In this document: positions 32,087-54,969 of the stretch, piece by piece
How the letters are laid out: each line of letters starts with the position of its first letter
Position numbering within the stretch: position 1 is the stretch's first letter
Source of the DNA: Hamadaea tsunoensis DSM 44101
Lineage (GTDB): Bacteria > Actinomycetota > Actinomycetes > Mycobacteriales > Micromonosporaceae
Assembly: GCF_000428945.1 (NCBI RefSeq)
Contig: NZ_AUAX01000003.1
Span: 372,001-436,000, forward strand
Direction of reading: 5' to 3'
DNA length: 64,000 nt
Program-made: the position numbers and the translations under genes
The notes under the pieces: generated by a model
Told to the model about the DNA's origin: nothing
Databases searched by the model: none
Seen by the model: the letters and a program-made list of their open reading frames with translations, nothing else

Positions 32087-32090
<4 letters not shown>
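31320..32090 (-). CDS. nuoE: NADH-quinone oxidoreductase subunit E with duplicated N-terminus
   Basis: A 256-aa thioredoxin-fold subunit carrying [2Fe-2S] cluster N1a with ligands Cys108, Cys113, Cys149 and Cys153, all present. The C-terminal tail beyond about residue 215 is longer than in E. coli. The first 26 residues are a tandem duplication ([24 protein letters not shown]) caused by a 36-bp DNA repeat right at the start of the gene. The ATG overlaps the nuoD stop by 4 nt, so the start is secure and the repeat is translated. Confidence 0.96.
32015..32086 (-). repeat. 36-bp tandem duplication at the nuoE 5' end
   Basis: Units 32015-32050 and 32051-32086 match at 33 of 36 bases; each begins TCACCTGA and ends AGCGC on the plus strand. 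The length is a multiple of three, so the frame is kept and 12 residues are repeated. The three differences show that the copies are not an assembly artefact of perfect repetition. Confidence 0.9.
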
Positions 32091-33408
<1,318 letters not shown>

Positions 33409-33412
<4 letters not shown>

Positions 33413-34095
33413 CGGTAGGACCTCCGCTGGTCCGGCGGTGGAATCTCGGCGCCCTTGTACTCGACCGGCACGCCGCCGAGCGGGTAGTCCTTGCGCTGGG
33501 GGTGGCCGTCCCAGTCGTCCGGCATCAGGATGCGGGTGAGGTTGGGGTGGCCGTCGTAGATGATCCCGAACATGTCGTACGCCTCGCGCTCCTGCCAGTC
33601 GGCGGTCGGGTAGACCGCCGTCACGCTCGGCAGATGCGGGTTCTCGACCGTCACGGCGCACTCCAGGCGCAGCCGGCGGCGGTACGTCATCGAGGTCAGG
33701 TGGTAGACCGAGTGCAGTCGGCGGTCCTCGGCCGGATAGTCCACACCGGACACCGAGGAGCACAGCTCGTAGCGCAGGCCCTCGTCGTCCCGCAGGATCC
33801 GGCAGACGTCGGCGATCCGCTCGGGCTTGATGTGCAGCGTCAGCTCGCCCCGGTCGACGACGACCCGCTCGATCGCGTCGGCGAAGCTCAGGAACGCCCG
33901 CTCCGGCTCGTTGGCGGCGGTCGCGAGCGCGTCCTCGAGGCCGTCGAGCACCTCGTCGAACTCGTCGACGCCGACCGGCCGGCCGACCGTGGCCGGCGCG
34001 AGGGCCGGACGGCGTACGAGGCCGGAGAACCCGGACGTGTCGCCCGTGCCACCGACGCCGAACATGCCGTGCTGGCCGTTGACGATCTCGCTCAT
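33409..34095 (-). CDS. nuoC: NADH-quinone oxidoreductase subunit C
   Basis: A 228-aa 30-kDa-type subunit of the Q-module, separate from NuoD (unlike the fused E. coli protein). The signature is [23 protein letters not shown] in part, followed by [19 protein letters not shown]. An N-terminal extension of about 60 residues ([12 protein letters not shown] and following) is low-complexity. The ATG overlaps the nuoB stop by 4 nt. Confidence 0.96.
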
Positions 34096-34751
34096 CGAGC
34101 GACCTCCCGCTGCATCCAGTTCGCGATTCGCAGCTGCTCCTCGGTGCCCTCGGCGACCGCCTTCTCCCACTCGGCGCGGCGCGCCTTGTCGTAGCGGTAG
34201 CTGGACGGCATCGCGCCCGGCTGCACGATCGGGCCCTTGCCGTCGGCCTCACGCTGCGCGACGGTCTTGGCCCGGCGGTCGCCCAGCGGCTCGGCCATGA
34301 CCTTCTCGTGCAGCTTGAGGATCGCGTCGATGAGCATCTCCGGCCGCGGCGGGCAGCCGGGCAGGTACATGTCGACCGGTACGACGTGGTCGACGCCCTG
34401 CACGATCGCGTAGTTGTTGAACATGCCGCCGCTGGACGCGCAGACGCCCATGGACAGCACCCACTTCGGGTCCGGCATCTGGTCGTAGATCTGGCGCAGG
34501 ACCGGGGCCATCTTCTGGCTCACCCGGCCCGCGACGATCATCAGATCGGCCTGCCGCGGCGAGGCCCGGAAGACCTCCATGCCGAACCGGGCCAGGTCGT
34601 ACCGGGCCGCGCCGGTCGCCATCATCTCGATCGCGCAGCAGGCCAGGCCGAACGTCGCCGGCCAGAAGCTCGCCTTGCGCGACCAGTTGACCAGCTTCTC
34701 GACCGTGGTCAGCAGGACGCCGTTGGGGAGGAGTTTTTCTTCGATACCCAC
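34092..34751 (-). CDS. nuoB: NADH-quinone oxidoreductase subunit B
   Basis: A 219-aa subunit holding the terminal [4Fe-4S] cluster N2, which passes electrons to quinone. The four ligands are the tandem Cys38-Cys39, Cys104 (GVCASSGG) and Cys133 (PGCPPRPE). A C-terminal extension of about 40 residues is usual in actinobacteria. It starts 15 bp after nuoA and overlaps nuoC. Confidence 0.97.
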
Positions 34752-34766
34752 TGCTGTGACCGCCCT

Positions 34767-47561: not shown

Positions 47562-48578
47562 ATGGCGGAACGGCTCCGGACGGCGATGGACCGGGCGCTC
47601 TACGGGCCCGGCGGATTCTTCCGTACCCATCGTCCGGCCGGGCAGTTCCGCACCTCGGTCACAGCGTCCCCGCTGTTCGCCGTCGCGCTCGCCCGGCTGG
47701 TCGCGTACGCGGACGGCGTCCTCGGGCACCCGGACCGGTTCGACCTCGTCGACGTGGGAGCCGGGCAGGGACTGCTGCTGGACCGGGTGATGACCGTGCT
47801 CGGCTGGCCGGACCGCGTACGTGCCACGGCCGTCGAGAAGGCGGACCGACCGGACGGGCTCGACGAGCGCATCGCGTGGGTCACCGAGCCGCCGGCCGGG
47901 ACGGTGGGCGTCCTGCTCGCGACCGAGTGGCTGGACAACGTCCCGCTCGACATCGCCGAGGTGGCCGAGGACGGCCGGATCCGGTACGCGCTCACCGACG
48001 GGAGTCTCGGCGACGAGATCGACGCGGCCGACCGGGCCTGGCTGGCGGAGTGGTGGCCGGTCAGCGAACCGGGCGAGCGGGCGGAGATCGGCCGGACCCG
48101 CGACGAGGCGTGGTCGGCGGCGGTCGCGACGGTCCGGCGGGGGATCGCGCTCGCCGTCGACTACGGGCACACGCGGGCCGACCGGCGGCCGACCCTCACC
48201 GGATTCCGCGCCGGTCGCGAGGTCGAGCCGCGTTTCGACGGCACCACCGACATCACCGCTCACGTGGCGGTGGACTCCATCGGTCCCGCCCGGCTACGCG
48301 TACTCCCAGGCAAGCAGCGGGAAGCGCTGCGAGATCTCGGGGTCGACGGCGCGCGGCCACCCCTCAGCCTCGCTCATGAAGATCCCAAGGCCTATGTACG
48401 CGCGTTGAGCCGCGCGAGCCAGGCGGCGGAGCTGACCGGTCCGGGCTTGGGTGATCATTGGTGGGTGCTCGCGCCGGTGGCCATAGAGTGGGGGGATGAC
48501 GACCTTCGCCGAGCTGGACGCGCTGAGCACCACCGACCTGCGCGACCGGGCCTTCGACCTGGCCAAGCAGCGCCGTGA
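47562..48578 (+). CDS. MidA/NDUFAF7-like SAM-dependent methyltransferase
   Basis: A 338-aa methyltransferase of the DUF185/MidA family. Features match NDUFAF7: N-terminal GQFRTSVTASPLFAVALA, SAM motif VDVGAGQG (about 63-70), TEWLDNVPLD (121-130, cf. EFFDVLP), ALAVDYGHTRADRRPTLTGFR region (196-216) and DGTTDITAHVAVDSI. Human NDUFAF7 dimethylates Arg85 of NDUFS2, the NuoD homologue. A NuoD paralogue with Arg at that position is encoded at 50043-51188, so it is a candidate substrate; this is inference. The last 83 bp overlap the next gene, and the final 25 residues are Arg-rich and look unlike the rest. Confidence 0.8.
   Translation: MAERLRTAMDRALYGPGGFFRTHRPAGQFRTSVTASPLFAVALARLVAYADGVLGHPDRFDLVDVGAGQGLLLDRVMTVLGWPDRVRATAVEKADRPDGLDERIAWVTEPPAGTVGVLLATEWLDNVPLDIAEVAEDGRIRYALTDGSLGDEIDAADRAWLAEWWPVSEPGERAEIGRTRDEAWSAAVATVRRGIALAVDYGHTRADRRPTLTGFRAGREVEPRFDGTTDITAHVAVDSIGPARLRVLPGKQREALRDLGVDGARPPLSLAHEDPKAYVRALSRASQAAELTGPGLGDHWWVLAPVAIEWGDDDLRRAGRAEHHRPARPGLRPGQAAP
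48484..48489 (+). promoter_or_regulatory. -10 box inside the MidA-like gene for the 94-aa gene
   Basis: TAGAGT (TANNNT) ends 6 nt before the ATG at 48496; the spacer is six G, which could also serve as a poor ribosome site. The box lies within the coding end of the methyltransferase. Confidence 0.5.
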
Positions 48579-48780
48579 CCTGGGATTCTTCATCGACCTG
48601 TCGCAGCACCTTCCGTCGGCGGGCGACGCGGAGCAGGGCGACGACTCGCTCGGCGACATCGGCCCGCAGATCGACGACTACTTCAACATGTGGCACGAGC
48701 TGAAGGGCCACGAGTACGGCGACCGCGAGCCCCTGATCCGAGCCCGTTTCATCGACTACCTGATGGACGCGGAGAAGTAA
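48496..48780 (+). CDS. Small unknown soluble protein, 94 aa
   Basis: A conserved-looking acidic, mostly helical protein (MTTFAELDALSTTDLRDRAF; central DDSLGDIGPQIDDYFNMWHEL). Codon use matches the neighbours, and it has its own -10 box, so it is a real gene. It overlaps the methyltransferase end by 83 bp in another frame. No family recognised; no signal peptide or membrane segment. Confidence 0.75.
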   Translation: MTTFAELDALSTTDLRDRAFDLAKQRRDLGFFIDLSQHLPSAGDAEQGDDSLGDIGPQIDDYFNMWHELKGHEYGDREPLIRARFIDYLMDAEK

Positions 48781-48834
48781 CCCGTACAGGTGGGGGCGGG
48801 GCGCGGCTCCCGTGACTTTCCCCGCGACGATCGG

Positions 48835-48840
48835 TAGGCT
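48835..48840 (+). promoter_or_regulatory. -10 box for leaderless 364-aa gene
   Basis: TAGGCT (TANNNT) ends 8 nt before the ATG at 48849; no ribosome-binding site in between. Confidence 0.5.
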
Positions 48841-48848
48841 GACCAGCC

Positions 48849-49943
48849 ATGCCGGGCTCCTCCGAATCCCCCGAACGGCACCGCGGCAAGCTGCCCGCGA
48901 TGCTGCTGTGGGCCGGGGTGGGCATCGCCCCGCTCGCCGCGCTCGCCCTCATCCTCGGCAGCGGTGACCGCTCCCTGCGCGTCGCCGTCGGCCTGGCCCT
49001 CGTCGCCGTCGTCCTGATCGGACTGGCGATCGTGCTGCGGCCGGCCGCCGAGCAGATCAAGGAGGAGCTGGAGGACTCCCTCTACGACGAGCTGGACGTC
49101 GTCCGGGAGGACATGCGCGGCGACATCACGACGGCCGCCCGCGCCACGCACAGAGCCTTCGCGGAGCGGTTCCAGCAGCTGCAGGACGGCGTCGAGCAGA
49201 TGCGCGGGCAGGTCGAGGGCATGCGCGCCGAGATCGCCCGGCAGGAGGCGATGCGCGGCAGCCAGCCGCAGCAGCCGTCCCCGCACGCCGCGCCGCCCCG
49301 GCCGAACGGTCCCGGCGTCGTCCGGCACACCGAGACCGTCCAGGTCACGACCCGGTCCACCATCGTCGACCCGCACACCGAGGAACCCGCGCCCGCCCGC
49401 GGCACGGTCTGGGGCCGGCGCCCCGAACCCGCGCCCGAGCCCGCGCCGCCGCGCCGGGCGGAACCCGCGTACCCGGAGGCGCAGCAGTACCCGAAGTACG
49501 AGGAGTCCTGGACCGAGCAGCAGCTGCGCCAGCGGCTCGCCGAGGCGTCGAACCGCGGGCCCGCCCCCGAGGAGCCGCCGTCGGACGAGCGCTGGTCCGG
49601 CGTACGCTCCGGCGACCGCTGGGCCAGCGTCCGGGCCGACGAGCGCGGCCGGGAGCTGCGGATGGGCGAGCGGCGCAGCTCGATGCACGCCGACGAGAAC
49701 GGTTCCGAGGTCCGCTACGAGGACCGCTGGACGGCCATGCGCCGCGAAGACCCCCGGTACGCGGGCGACGCGCCCCGCCGCCGCGAGGAGCAGCCGGACT
49801 GGGAGGGCCGCCGCGGTCCCCGGGCGCTGCCGGCCACATCGGACGAGCAGTCGGGGTCGGAGTGGGTCGGCCGCTGGGCGCCACCGGCCGAGCCGGAGCC
49901 GGAACCGCGTCGCCGCCGCCGCTACGACGACGGCGGTTATTGA
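48849..49943 (+). CDS. Unknown membrane protein with coiled coil and disordered tail
   Basis: A 364-aa protein with two N-terminal transmembrane helices (about 15-38 and 44-63), a coiled-coil (about 68-135, ADEQIKEELEDSLYDEL-like region through RAEIARQEAM), then a long Pro/Arg/Glu-rich disordered region with repeated Trp-Arg phrases (GDRWASVR, EDRWTAMR). Not assigned to a family. It could organise something at the membrane; no function is claimed. It converges on the NuoD paralogue across a large inverted repeat. Confidence 0.7.
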   Translation: MPGSSESPERHRGKLPAMLLWAGVGIAPLAALALILGSGDRSLRVAVGLALVAVVLIGLAIVLRPAAEQIKEELEDSLYDELDVVREDMRGDITTAARATHRAFAERFQQLQDGVEQMRGQVEGMRAEIARQEAMRGSQPQQPSPHAAPPRPNGPGVVRHTETVQVTTRSTIVDPHTEEPAPARGTVWGRRPEPAPEPAPPRRAEPAYPEAQQYPKYEESWTEQQLRQRLAEASNRGPAPEEPPSDERWSGVRSGDRWASVRADERGRELRMGERRSSMHADENGSEVRYEDRWTAMRREDPRYAGDAPRRREEQPDWEGRRGPRALPATSDEQSGSEWVGRWAPPAEPEPEPRRRRRYDDGGY

Positions 49944-49955
49944 TCTCTGCCGGTC

Positions 49956-50038
49956 CCAAGATCCCGCTTGGATCAGGGATATCACCCGAATCTTGGGCCA
50001 TGATTACGTGCGAAAACCTGATCCAAACGGGATCTTGG
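49956..50038. repeat. Long inverted repeat, 22-bp arms with one mismatch
   Basis: Arms 49956-49977 and 50017-50038 begin CCAAGATCCCG and end CGGGATCTTGG, with one G/T-type mismatch. The 39-nt spacer holds another degenerate copy (AATCTTGGG). The GC content is clearly lower than around it. It lies between convergent genes and may end both transcripts, but size and composition suggest an inserted intergenic repeat element. Confidence 0.85.
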
Positions 50039-50042
50039 CCGC

Positions 50043-51188
50043 TTACTTGTCGATGTCGCCGACGACGAAGAACATCGAGCCGAGGATGGCGACCAGGTCG
50101 GGCACGAGCGTGCCGGGCAGCAGCGTCGACAGCGCCTGGACGTTCGCGTACGAGGCGGTGCGCAGCTTCATCCGCCAGGGCGTCTTCTCCCCGCGGGACA
50201 CCAGGTAGTAGCCGTTGACGCCGAGCGGGTTCTCCGTCCAGGCGTACGTGTGGCCCTCGGGGGCCTTGACGACCTTGGGCAGCCGCACGTTCACCGGGCC
50301 GCCGATCTGGTCCAGCCTGGTCAGGCACTGCTCGGCGAGGTCCAGCGACACGTGGACCTGGTCGAGGAGCACCTCGAACCGGGCATGGCAGTCGCCCGCC
50401 GTACGCGTCACGACCGGCACGTCGAGCTGCCCGTACGCGAGGTAGGGCTCGTCGCGGCGCAGGTCGAAGTCGAGCCCGCTGGCCCGGGCGACCGGACCGG
50501 ACGCGCCGAACGCGGCGGCCTGCTCCGCCGACAGCACCCCCACCCCGACCGTACGCGCGAGGAAGATCTCGTTGCCGCGGATGATCCGGTCGAGGTCGGG
50601 CAGGCGGCCGCGGACCTGGCCGATGACCTCCCGGGCGCGCCGCGTCCAGCCGGCCGGCACCTCTTCCTTGACGCCGCCGACCCGGTTGAACATGTAGTGC
50701 ATGCGACCGCCGGAGACCTCCTCCATGATCGCCTGCAACGCCTCGCGCTCGCGGAACGCGTAGAAGACCGGGGTGATCGCGCCGAGCTCCAACGGGTACG
50801 ACCCCAGGAACATCAGATGGCTCAGTACGCGGTTCAGCTCCGCCAGGGCCGTACGCAGCCACACCGCCCGCTCGGGCACCTCGATGCCCATCATCCGCTC
50901 GACGGCCAGCGCGACACCGAGTTCGTTGGCGAACGCGCTCAGCCAGTCGTGGCGGTTGGCGAGCACGATGATCTGGCGATAGTCGCGTACCTCGAAGAGC
51001 TTCTCGGCGCCGCGGTGCATGTAGCCGATGATCGGTTCGGCGGTGACCACGCGTTCGCCGTCGAGGGCCAGCTTCAGCCGCAGTACGCCGTGCGTCGAGG
51101 GATGCTGCGGTCCGATGTTGAGGATCATGTCCTCGGTCTCGATGCCGGCGCCCGTGCCGACCGTCAGTTCCCGCAGCGCCTCAGCCAT
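50043..51188 (-). CDS. Orphan NuoD paralogue (NuoD2)
   Basis: A 381-aa protein clearly homologous to complex I subunit D ([52 protein letters not shown]), but about 60 aa shorter than NuoD and not in a nuo operon. His33 of the quinone site is kept; the quinone-site Tyr is Trp82 (RHDWLSAF versus RMDYLAPL), and the NDUFS2 Arg85 position is Arg59 (YMHRGAEK versus YLHTGIEK). It therefore probably does not reduce quinone as NuoD does. It may work in a variant complex or have a regulatory role. It starts 9 bp after the permease-like gene, so both are in one operon. Confidence 0.9.
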
Positions 51189-52559: not shown

Positions 52560-53132
52560 CTAGTGCAAGTCTTCTTCACGCTCGCGGCGCCCGCCGACCG
52601 GCACGGTCGCGTAGGTCATCCGGCCGTTTCCGCCGCCCGACCGGCCGTTTCCGTTTCCGTTCTCGTCCTTGTCATCCGGTTGGTCGGGAATCCGGCAGGA
52701 GTGCTCCAGCCAGAGCGCGGCCGCGATCAAGGCAAGCGCGGCGACGAAACCCGCGATGGCCGGCGGCAGGTCGGCCCGGGCGTGCCCGTTGTCGCCCTTG
52801 AGCACCAGGCCGACGACCATGCCGCCCATGAACCCACCGAAGATCGCCCCGGCCAGGGACGACGCCTTGGCCAGCACGACCCAGCGCGCCACCAGCAGCC
52901 CGTGGATGGGCAGGCGGCCGGGCTTGCGGGCGATGCGGGCACGGGTGTTGTTCGCGACCACCACCTCGAACAGGGCCAGCGCGCCCAGCGTCACCGCCGG
53001 GATCCACTGCAGCGACGGGATGCGGTTGTACCAGATGCTGACCAGGAGCCAGGCCACGGCCGCCGCGATCAACCCGGCCACGACCAGGGTCGCCGGGTTC
53101 GTCGGCCGTAGCGACGGCTTCGGTTCGGTCAT
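52560..53132 (-). CDS. DUF3180-family membrane protein
   Basis: A 190-aa protein with four hydrophobic helices and a Gly/Asn-rich tail (ENGNGNGRSGGGNGR). The opening MTEPKPSLRPTNPATLVVAG and position next to folK fit the actinobacterial DUF3180 family, which has no known function. The ATG at 53132 is preferred over a GTG at 53141 because AGGGGG is at the right distance. It probably ends the folP-folB-folK transcript. Confidence 0.85.
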   Translation of the reverse strand: MTEPKPSLRPTNPATLVVAGLIAAAVAWLLVSIWYNRIPSLQWIPAVTLGALALFEVVVANNTRARIARKPGRLPIHGLLVARWVVLAKASSLAGAIFGGFMGGMVVGLVLKGDNGHARADLPPAIAGFVAALALIAAALWLEHSCRIPDQPDDKDENGNGNGRSGGGNGRMTYATVPVGGRREREEDLH

Positions 53133-53172
53133 GAGAATCACGGCCCCCTGCCGGCGTTGGTGGTCGTCGTCC

Positions 53173-53721
53173 CTACGACTCTAGCGAGATCTCCGGCCGC
53201 GCCCACATGGCGAGCACGTCGGTCGCCACCGGCTCGGCGCGGATCAGGTCGTAGACCCAGCCGTGACCCGGCAGGCGCGCGTACGGCTGCGCCTCCAGCC
53301 ACGGCCGCAGCACGAAGGCCCGCAAGTGGGCACGCGGGTGGGGCAGCGTCAGCGCCGCGGTGTCGCGCAGGACCGGCTCGCCGTCCGCGGTGGTCGCGGC
53401 GATGAGATCCACATCGAGCGTACGCGGGGCGAACCGCCGCCCCGGGTCGCGTTCCCGGCCGGCGGACTGCTCGCAGCGCTGGGCGAAATCGAGCCACTGC
53501 TCGACGGTCCGGCCGGCATGCCCGACGATGGCGACGGCATTGAGATAGTTGGGCTGGTCGGCATCGCCCCACGGGGGTGTCTCGTAGACGCCGCTCACCA
53601 CGAGCAGGTCGTCGCCGAGCGCGCGGACCACGCCGCGCAGGTGGGCCTCACGGTCGCCGAGATTGCTGCCGAGACTGAGGACGACGACGTCCATGCGCTC
53701 CTCGCCTGTCACGCTGCTCAT
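53173..53721 (-). CDS. folK: Hydroxymethyl-dihydropterin pyrophosphokinase
   Basis: A 182-aa enzyme of folate synthesis that transfers pyrophosphate from ATP to 6-hydroxymethyl-7,8-dihydropterin. The signatures are LSLGSNLGDREAHL, YETPPWGDADQPNYLNAV and RRFAPRTLDVDLIA (ATP/pterin site). The ATG at 53721 is 7 nt after the folB stop; an ATG at 53694 (MDVVVLSLG) is an alternative start. The long open frame upstream is shadow. Confidence 0.94.
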   Translation of the reverse strand: MSSVTGEERMDVVVLSLGSNLGDREAHLRGVVRALGDDLLVVSGVYETPPWGDADQPNYLNAVAIVGHAGRTVEQWLDFAQRCEQSAGRERDPGRRFAPRTLDVDLIAATTADGEPVLRDTAALTLPHPRAHLRAFVLRPWLEAQPYARLPGHGWVYDLIRAEPVATDVLAMWARPEISLES

Positions 53722-53728
53722 CGCGCGC

Positions 53729-54079
53729 TCACCGCCGGCGGCTGAGGGTGACACTGACATCGGAAAAACTGTGCGGAATCGGGGCACTCGGCTTGTGCAC
53801 GGTGACCGTCGCGCCATTCACTCGCGTATCACTCAGGCAGGCGTCGAGGAGTCGGTCGGCGAGCGTCTCGATGAGGTTCACCGGCTCGCCCTGGACGATC
53901 GCGACGAGCGCGTCCGCTAACTCTCCGTAGTGGACGGTGTCCCGAACGTCGTCGCTCGCGGCGGCCGGGGCGAGATCGAGATCGAGCCGGACGTCGACGA
54001 CGAAGTCCTGCCCCTCGGCCCGCTCGAAGTCGTAGACGCCGTGGTGCCCCCGAGCCCGCAGGCCGGTCAGCGTGATCAT
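53729..54079 (-). CDS. folB: Dihydroneopterin aldolase
   Basis: A 116-aa enzyme that converts dihydroneopterin to hydroxymethyl-dihydropterin and glycolaldehyde. The motif ARGHHGVYDFERAEGQ (with the conserved catalytic region), VHYGELADAL and the late Lys in VTVHKPSAPI are present. Between folP and folK, as in many actinobacteria, so the three steps are encoded together. Length normal. Confidence 0.94.
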   Translation of the reverse strand: MITLTGLRARGHHGVYDFERAEGQDFVVDVRLDLDLAPAAASDDVRDTVHYGELADALVAIVQGEPVNLIETLADRLLDACLSDTRVNGATVTVHKPSAPIPHSFSDVSVTLSRRR

Positions 54080-54126
54080 TCATTCCCCCAGGTCATGCGG
54101 TTCGGCAGGTCGTGCAGGCCGCCAGG

Positions 54127-54969
54127 TCATGCGGGTCGCCAGGTGAGCTCGGGTGCGCCGGTCGCGCGCCAGACCGCGATCGCGTCGACGGTCGCGCGGA
54201 CGTCGTGGACGCGTACGCCCCAGGCGCCGGCCGCCACGGCGAGCACACTGGTCGCGACCGTGGCCGCCTCGCGACCGTCGACCGGCCGGGGCTCGCCGTC
54301 GGGACCGGCCAGCAGCCGCCCGAGGTAGCTCTTGCGGCTCGACGCGTACAGGACCGGGAAACCGAGCTCGATCAGCCGGTCGAGGTGCCGCGTGAGCTCC
54401 CAGTTGTGCTCGGGCAACTTGGCGAAACCGAGGCCCGGGTCGAGGATGATCCGCTCCGCGCGTACGCCGGCCGCCAGCGCGTCGTCGACGCGGCGGGACA
54501 ACTCGTCGCGTACCTCGGTGACGACGTCGGAGTAGACGGCGCGCGACTGCATGTCCGCGGAGTGCGCCCGCCAGTGCATGATCACGAACGGGCAGCCCGC
54601 GTCGGCGACCACCTTGACCATGGCGGGGTCGGCGAGGCCGCCCGAGACATCGTTGACGACCTGGGCGCCGGCGGCCAGTGCCGCGGCCGCCACCTCGGCC
54701 CGGGTCGTGTCGATGCTCGTTGGCACATTCTGTGCCGAGAGTGCCTCGATGACCGGTACGACACGCCCGATCTCCGTCACAGCCGGTACGCGCGCCGCGC
54801 CGGGACGGGTCGACTCGCCCCCTACATCAACCAACTGCGCTCCGTCACGGATCAGCGACGTTCCGTGCTGGACAGCGGCAGCGAAAGAGTCGTATCGGCC
54901 CCCATCCGAAAACGAATCGGGCGTCACATTCAGGACACCCATGACCACCGGCGGCGACAAGAGCAGCAC
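54127..54969 (-). CDS. folP: Dihydropteroate synthase
   Basis: A 280-aa TIM-barrel enzyme joining p-aminobenzoate to hydroxymethyl-dihydropterin pyrophosphate; target of sulfonamides. GVLNVTPDSFSDGGRY and VDVGGESTRPGA are the loops that bind pyrophosphate and pABA; DPGLGFAK and KSYLGRLLAG are also present. The GTG at 54969 follows TAATGT by 6 nt, so the mRNA is leaderless. First gene of the fol operon; divergent from the conjugation-like operon. Confidence 0.95.
   Translation of the reverse strand: MLLLSPPVVMGVLNVTPDSFSDGGRYDSFAAAVQHGTSLIRDGAQLVDVGGESTRPGAARVPAVTEIGRVVPVIEALSAQNVPTSIDTTRAEVAAAALAAGAQVVNDVSGGLADPAMVKVVADAGCPFVIMHWRAHSADMQSRAVYSDVVTEVRDELSRRVDDALAAGVRAERIILDPGLGFAKLPEHNWELTRHLDRLIELGFPVLYASSRKSYLGRLLAGPDGEPRPVDGREAATVATSVLAVAAGAWGVRVHDVRATVDAIAVWRATGAPELTWRPA

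Follow-up and report, generated by a model that had tools for sequence, protein, structure and literature searches.

We found that a 64,000-nucleotide stretch of the Hamadaea tsunoensis DSM 44101 genome (hereafter the window) carries, 1.5 kb apart, the genes for a MidA/NDUFAF7-like S-adenosylmethionine (SAM)-dependent methyltransferase and for NuoD2, which is subunit D of an additional complex I (Nuo2), and that these two genes co-occur and are linked across actinobacterial genomes. We also found that the methyltransferase gene can stand at the end of a nuo2 operon and that the two complex I isoforms hold opposite residues beside cluster N2; these observations are new. Taken together with data on related enzymes, they make it likely that the MidA-like protein methylates Arg59 of NuoD2 and is thereby an assembly factor dedicated to Nuo2. 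Two parts of the setting were already on record, namely the detached nuoD2 of Streptomyces and the arginine dimethylation of a bacterial NuoD in Paracoccus, both of which are cited below, as are all papers here, by PMC number and from partial text. Our literature search, for which most subscription journals were out of reach, returned no publication whose title or opening abstract lines cover a MidA-NuoD2 pair in actinobacteria. The features on which the argument rests are as follows.

47562..48578, plus strand: MidA/NDUFAF7-like SAM-dependent methyltransferase (midA), 338 aa, PF02636
50043..51188, minus strand: NuoD2, D subunit of Nuo2, detached from the nuo2 cluster, 381 aa
51012..51014, minus strand: codon of NuoD2 Arg59 (HRGAEK), position of human NDUFS2 Arg85, the proposed methylation site
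50943..50945, minus strand: codon of NuoD2 Trp82, which aligns with Tyr87 of Thermus Nqo4
32087..33412, minus strand: canonical NuoD (NuoD1), with Thr78 in HTGIEK and Tyr101 at the Tyr87 site
34095..34766, minus strand: canonical NuoB (NuoB1), open frame; its Arg codon at 34524-34526 aligns with Arg83 of Thermus Nqo6

The first-pass annotation of this DNA had placed a MidA-family methyltransferase at 47562-48578, and the PF02636 match of this open reading frame (ORF), at 55.3 bits against a curated cut-off of 23.3 and the only one in the 9.48-Mb genome, bears this out; none of the NCBIfam models covers the protein. Three motifs stand out in the sequence: the glycine motif VGAGQG (starting at residue 65), the conserved acidic loop ATEWLDNVP (at 120) and DYGH (at 200). 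We take the first two to be the SAM-binding motifs of the MidA family. Across 28 members of the family, Glu122, Leu124, Asp125, Asp200 and Tyr201 were invariant and Gly68, Gly70 and Pro128 were at least 90% conserved, and the glycine motif was not uniform, reading MAAGRG or GASDG in some. A profile built from these 28 relatives matched Burkholderia 4f3n (E 4e-29), Rhodopseudomonas 1zkd (E 6e-23) and 5ztz, the Dictyostelium NDUFAF7 homologue MidA (E 5e-18). An AlphaFold2 model with a mean pLDDT of 92.3 gave the same picture: its six top matches in the PDB (4g67, 4f3n, two chains of 1zkd, 5ztz and 5zu0; E 4e-19 to 2e-16) all belong to the COG1565/MidA family, and the seventh drops to 1e-5. Model confidence is low for the C-terminal residues, which share DNA with the next ORF. 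The midA product is probably a protein-methylating enzyme.

The second NuoD had been annotated at the right coordinates, with its strand left unstated; since it lies on the minus strand, midA and nuoD2 are convergent. The residues read at the first pass, Arg59 in HRGAEK of this protein and Thr78 in HTGIEK of the canonical NuoD, were both correct. NuoD2 scored 249 bits against PF00346 and 387.6 against NF004739 (cut-off 360), and it stayed under the cut-offs of TIGR01962 (397 of 459) and NF008974 (412 of 522). In alignment it retains the HRGxEK motif beside N2 and lacks the quinone-site Tyr (Thermus Tyr87), which is replaced by Trp82.

It had been called an orphan; we correct this, as NuoD2 belongs to a second complex I, from whose other genes its own gene is detached. 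The genome holds two copies each of NuoD, NuoB and NuoA. The second NuoB lies at 285.7 kb of the same contig (C3), 136 kb from nuoD2, and opens a cluster in which nuoB2-C2-H2 are followed by a stretch of approximately 7.8 kb that contains three long, mutually similar genes, and this by nuoI2-J2-K2-L2-M2-N2; a NuoD search of the genome found no NuoD inside it. The gene nuoA2 is detached too (C3:197085-197381, about 88 kb from nuoB2). A full second set (A2, B2, C2, D2, H2, I2, J2, K2, L2, M2 and N2), matching the make-up of an 11-subunit complex I that has no NADH module, could thus be named by Pfam and NCBIfam models, several of its subunits scoring under the curated NCBIfam cut-offs, and the ten genes other than nuoD2 are all elsewhere on the contig that carries it. 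Only one NuoE-type gene was found, in the canonical cluster, and a second NuoF-type gene lies on contig C36. We assign the second NuoD to Nuo2 because the other ten genes of the set are present, because their cluster has no NuoD and because Streptomyces offers a precedent: a Nuo2 set (nuoA2, B2, D2, H2-N2) with a separate nuoD2 has been described there (PMC8388888, PMC3765725). The same ten genes led us to reject the reading of this NuoD as a lone relic. Compared with Streptomyces, nuoA2 is detached here as well, and the portions of those papers available to us mention neither MidA nor a residue switch. As separate observations on the cluster, the three consecutive similar genes between nuoH2 and nuoI2 encode about 840 aa each (C3:276300-284026; L007:3300-11026), the first of them with carboxypeptidase-regulatory-like domains, and a 2125-aa repeat-rich ORF (L431:1547-7924) lies directly downstream of nuoN2.

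The residues beside N2 set the two isoforms apart. In Thermus, Thr replaces the mitochondrial NDUFS2 Arg, whose position is filled by Arg83 of Nqo6; this Arg/Thr switch between subunits has been described for Thermus and Yarrowia (PMC8042128). Alignment showed the Thermus thermophilus pair, Nqo4 Thr with Nqo6 Arg83, in the canonical Nuo1 of H. tsunoensis (NuoD-Thr/NuoB-Arg), and the opposite pair in Nuo2 (NuoD-Arg/NuoB-Thr): the NuoB1 Arg aligns with Thermus Arg83, and NuoB2 shares its Thr with mitochondrial NDUFS7. Unlike Thermus, therefore, this one genome holds both forms of the switch, one per isoform. In one batch of fetched loci, NuoB had Thr in 47, Arg in 19 and was unreadable in 3, and NuoD had Arg in 64, Thr in 21 and was unreadable in 3. 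Among 14 genomes with a divergent NuoD2, the Arg-type NuoB1 was found in all 14 and the Thr-type NuoB2 in 11; a second NuoB of the Thr kind was not read in G027, G190 and G203, the last of which gave a hydrogenase-like match with Ala at the NuoB position. Partial Pfam matches in divergent lineages had raised the idea of a NuoB2 without the N2 cysteines, which was rejected as the sequences retain LACC and GCPP.

We then read 450 loci by pattern; some of them overlap, and most were chosen for holding NuoD or NuoB genes. The NuoD pattern left the Arg site free and restricted the second site to Y, W or F. It returned 108 distinct NuoD strings, 80 with Arg and Trp and 28 with Thr and Tyr, together with 95 distinct NuoB strings, 69 with Thr and 26 with Arg. 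Where a locus held one NuoD and one NuoB (n = 109), the NuoD/NuoB pair was Thr/Arg in 74, Arg/Thr in 35 and mixed in none. Trp stood at the Tyr87 position in 80/80 distinct Arg-type NuoD strings. In Thermus, Tyr87 is a quinone-site residue (PMC8042128), and its exchange hints that Nuo2 may use another quinone mode or acceptor.

The first-pass annotation expected MidA to accompany the Arg-type and not the Thr-type NuoD, and our survey of the class confirmed this. In a sample of 296 genomes NuoD2 was called when a single unbroken alignment extended to residue 380 or 381, and one fragment (G097) was counted in addition; the matches listed extended down to about E 5e-71, so weaker NuoD2 could escape. 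Among the matches listed, NuoD2 was present in 116 genomes and PF02636 in 105: both in 100, NuoD2 only in 16, MidA only in 5 and neither in 175. MidA was thus found in 100/116 genomes with NuoD2 and 5/180 without it (Fisher 1e-54, uncorrected for kinship). A local profile search recovered MidA in 4 of the 16 NuoD2-only genomes (2 cut by a contig end), which brought the counts to 104, 12, 5 and 175. In the main clade of NuoD2, 93 of the 95 genomes have MidA, the exceptions (G015 and G097) being fragmentary drafts, and in the divergent lineages 11 of 21 have it, the other 10 being among the 12 genomes without MidA. The upstream flank of nuoD2 was free of MidA over about 7 kb in 9 of these 10, and no MidA was found within at least 3.6 kb on either side of nuoD2 in G116, G127, G177, G203 and G263. 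A relaxed profile search for hidden MidA in the 12 MidA-less loci yielded noise only (best E 0.77). As for the MidA-only genomes, G023 and G076 show a piece of NuoD2 at a contig end, and G014 and G108 possess NuoB2. Within the 11 families in which NuoD2 is variable (132 genomes), both genes were present in 33, neither in 93, NuoD2 only in 4 and MidA only in 2, with 4 of these 6 exceptions in families f10, f26 and f40.

The genes are also neighbours. Of the 100 pairs, 93 share a contig and 89 lie within 6 kb, the widest gap being 11.0 kb; 70 of the linked pairs are on the same strand with midA upstream, 17 are convergent, and 5 and 1 take the other arrangements. NuoB2 and NuoD2 share a contig in 21 of 77 genomes and lie 74-921 kb apart there; in these same 21 genomes MidA is only 0.17-6.9 kb from NuoD2. 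We further inspected named MidA loci, the best 80 of at least 586 confirmed matches, which were mostly from Streptomyces and Micromonosporaceae: NuoD2 was present in 76 and folP in 45, and NuoD2 was of the Arg type in 75/75 readable cases. The order folP-folK-DUF3180-sm94-nuoD2-midA recurs, sm94 being an ORF for a 94-aa protein, and in several fetched loci that carry midA and nuoD2 no fol gene was detected. Given the co-occurrence, the linkage and the operon position described next, a chance neighbourhood was rejected.

Outside the class, in a phylum sample of 246 genomes with at most 9 MidA candidates scored per genome, a MidA match was found in at least 63 genomes, of which at least 57 also gave an unbroken NuoD2-type match. 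In 28 of these 57 the two genes are on one contig, at distances from 46 bp to 20 kb. Residues were surveyed in 80 of at least 123 NuoD2-type genes, those of at least 46% identity (43 fell below), and Arg was found in 79/79 readable sequences and Trp in 80/80. Among these 80, nuoD2 was in an operon in 60 (34 with MidA) and detached in 20 (18 with MidA), 52/80 overall; a detached nuoD2 is thus usually accompanied by MidA. Some nuo2 operons carry B2, C2, D2 and H2-L2 on one strand. Of 12 genomes whose midA is downstream of nuoD2 in the same orientation, 11 were checked for the operon position: in 9 of the 11, MidA followed the last nuo2 antiporter match by 34-319 bp on the same strand, unlike G337 and G399, in which it was 6.7 and 12 kb away.

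NDUFAF7 methylates NDUFS2 Arg85 in human cells (PMC3829151), Arg65 of Paracoccus denitrificans NuoD (Nqo4) is symmetrically dimethylated (PMC3750175), and a review finds that the evidence points to alphaproteobacterial NDUFAF7 homologues as methylating the NuoD Arg (PMC9006661). The first-pass annotation was therefore mistaken in calling the modification undescribed in bacteria. The human and Dictyostelium systems share with ours the enzyme family, by profile and fold, the residue and the HRGxEK substrate motif. They differ in that here the predicted substrate belongs, as its D subunit, to a second complex I, the main complex I having Thr, and in that the genes of enzyme and substrate are linked, the methylation itself being a prediction. 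Paracoccus likewise offers a bacterial NuoD with a methylated Arg at the same site, and no two-isoform setting is described in the available text of that report (PMC3750175).

The account that we find most economical is as follows. The cell encodes two isoforms of complex I, Nuo1 from the canonical operon and Nuo2. Nuo1 is of the Thermus type: beside N2 its NuoD has Thr, which leaves nothing to methylate there, and its NuoB has Arg. Nuo2 (A2, B2, C2, D2, H2-N2) is of the mitochondrial type, with Arg59 in NuoD2 and Thr in NuoB2. The MidA-like enzyme would bind newly made NuoD2 and methylate its Arg59, by analogy through symmetric dimethylation, at the time when NuoD2 joins NuoB2 or earlier. For the chemistry we rely on the human, Pichia and Paracoccus data (PMC3829151, PMC3750175). 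Actinobacteria amount to a natural experiment: of the two complexes I in a cell, one combines a methylatable Arg with an enzyme gene of its own and the other has the Thr/Arg swap, and some relatives kept the Arg without detectable MidA. The proposal would also supply a likely substrate for a MidA-like protein that lacks an NCBIfam model and a partner for the detached nuoD2 of Streptomyces.

Several points weigh against this proposal. The E. coli Arg at the same site is unmethylated (PMC3750175), and Arg alone thus does not demand the mark. Within the class, 12/116 NuoD2 genomes had no detectable MidA after the local re-search; outside it the same was true of 28/80 (26/60 in-operon, 2/20 detached), with Arg in all 27 readable of these 28, and Arg thus does not require MidA. 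The modification pair proposed at the first pass gained support from co-occurrence, linkage and an operon-end position in 9/11 genomes and finds a limit in these MidA-less, Arg-type NuoD2; we regard its interpretation as partly supported. One genome, G069 (L154), has MidA with no listed NuoD2 match and no second NuoB at E 1e-40, and is unexplained. In 7 further genomes outside the class no nuo gene was found in the 7-9.5 kb around MidA. Lastly, the co-occurrence counts take related genomes as independent, and the presence of MidA changes at least 13 times on the NuoD2 tree.

The role of the mark, were it present, is a further question, as the function of the dimethyl-Arg beside N2 is unsettled (PMC8042128). 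Methylation of Arg59 might serve as a sorting mark against mixing of the isoforms: only methylated NuoD2 would fit NuoB2 (Thr), and it would stay out of NuoB1 (Arg). Nuo2, with Trp for the quinone-site Tyr, would work with another acceptor or potential and with a donor other than NADH. We put this extension forward tentatively and consider it rather doubtful.

Among the alternatives to methylation of Arg59, the one that survives best, although we think it unlikely, is that MidA serves NuoD2 as a chaperone or binding factor, with a methyltransferase activity that is weak, lost or directed at another residue of NuoD2 or NuoB2. Linkage and operon position speak for a partnership of MidA with Nuo2 and not for its chemistry, and both the varying glycine motif and the unmethylated E. 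coli Arg would suit such a role; the five invariant residues and the conserved Gly68 and Gly70 argue against it, and the Dictyostelium MidA knock-out is not rescued by a methyltransferase-deficient mutant (PMC9006661). A purely historical linkage, in which a joint move brought midA and nuoD2 into a conserved fol neighbourhood where inertia has kept them, MidA having its target elsewhere, appears very unlikely. The recurrent fol order and the 7 genomes with MidA apart from nuo genes would agree with it; of the best 80 named loci, however, 45 contain folP and 76 NuoD2, several loci lack any detected fol gene, the orientation of the pair varies, nuo2 operons end in midA in 9 genomes and both genes are missing together from 175/296 genomes. 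Equally improbable is that no separate Nuo2 complex exists and that NuoD2 is an alternative that can substitute for the D subunit of the canonical complex: we know of no isolated Nuo2 complex, but the NuoB and NuoD residue sets are matched in all 109 loci, one-strand nuo2 operons exist and all eleven second-set genes are in this genome. Streptomyces RNA papers do suggest that Nuo2 antiporters may swap into complex I (PMC8388888, PMC3765725).

A residue marker of MidA was also sought outside the class. Phe occupies the motif (HRxFEK/HRxFDK) in 23/27 readable MidA-less and 3/52 MidA-bearing genomes (Fisher 8e-13), the latter mostly having HRx(Y/A/H)EK (L351-L430). This Phe changes only twice on the NuoD2 tree, and an independent-pair test gave 2 pairs for, 0 against and 9 without difference (p 0.5). 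It was therefore dropped as a marker and kept as a lead; the association may be one lineage effect.

The remaining features around the pair in the window are the following.

48496..48780, plus strand: sm94, 94-aa protein with no Pfam or NCBIfam match, overlapping the end of the midA ORF
48849..49943, plus strand: ORF of 364 aa between midA and nuoD2, which has hydrophobic stretches and matches no family above its cut-off
49956..50038, no strand: inverted repeat that separates the 364-aa ORF from the convergent nuoD2; its two arms of 22 nt are 95% complementary
52560..54969, minus strand: DUF3180, folK and folP, which recur beside nuoD2

The gene sm94 neighbours nuoD2 in many other genomes, those of distant actinobacteria included, and also where MidA is absent; it is possibly a small Nuo2-related factor.

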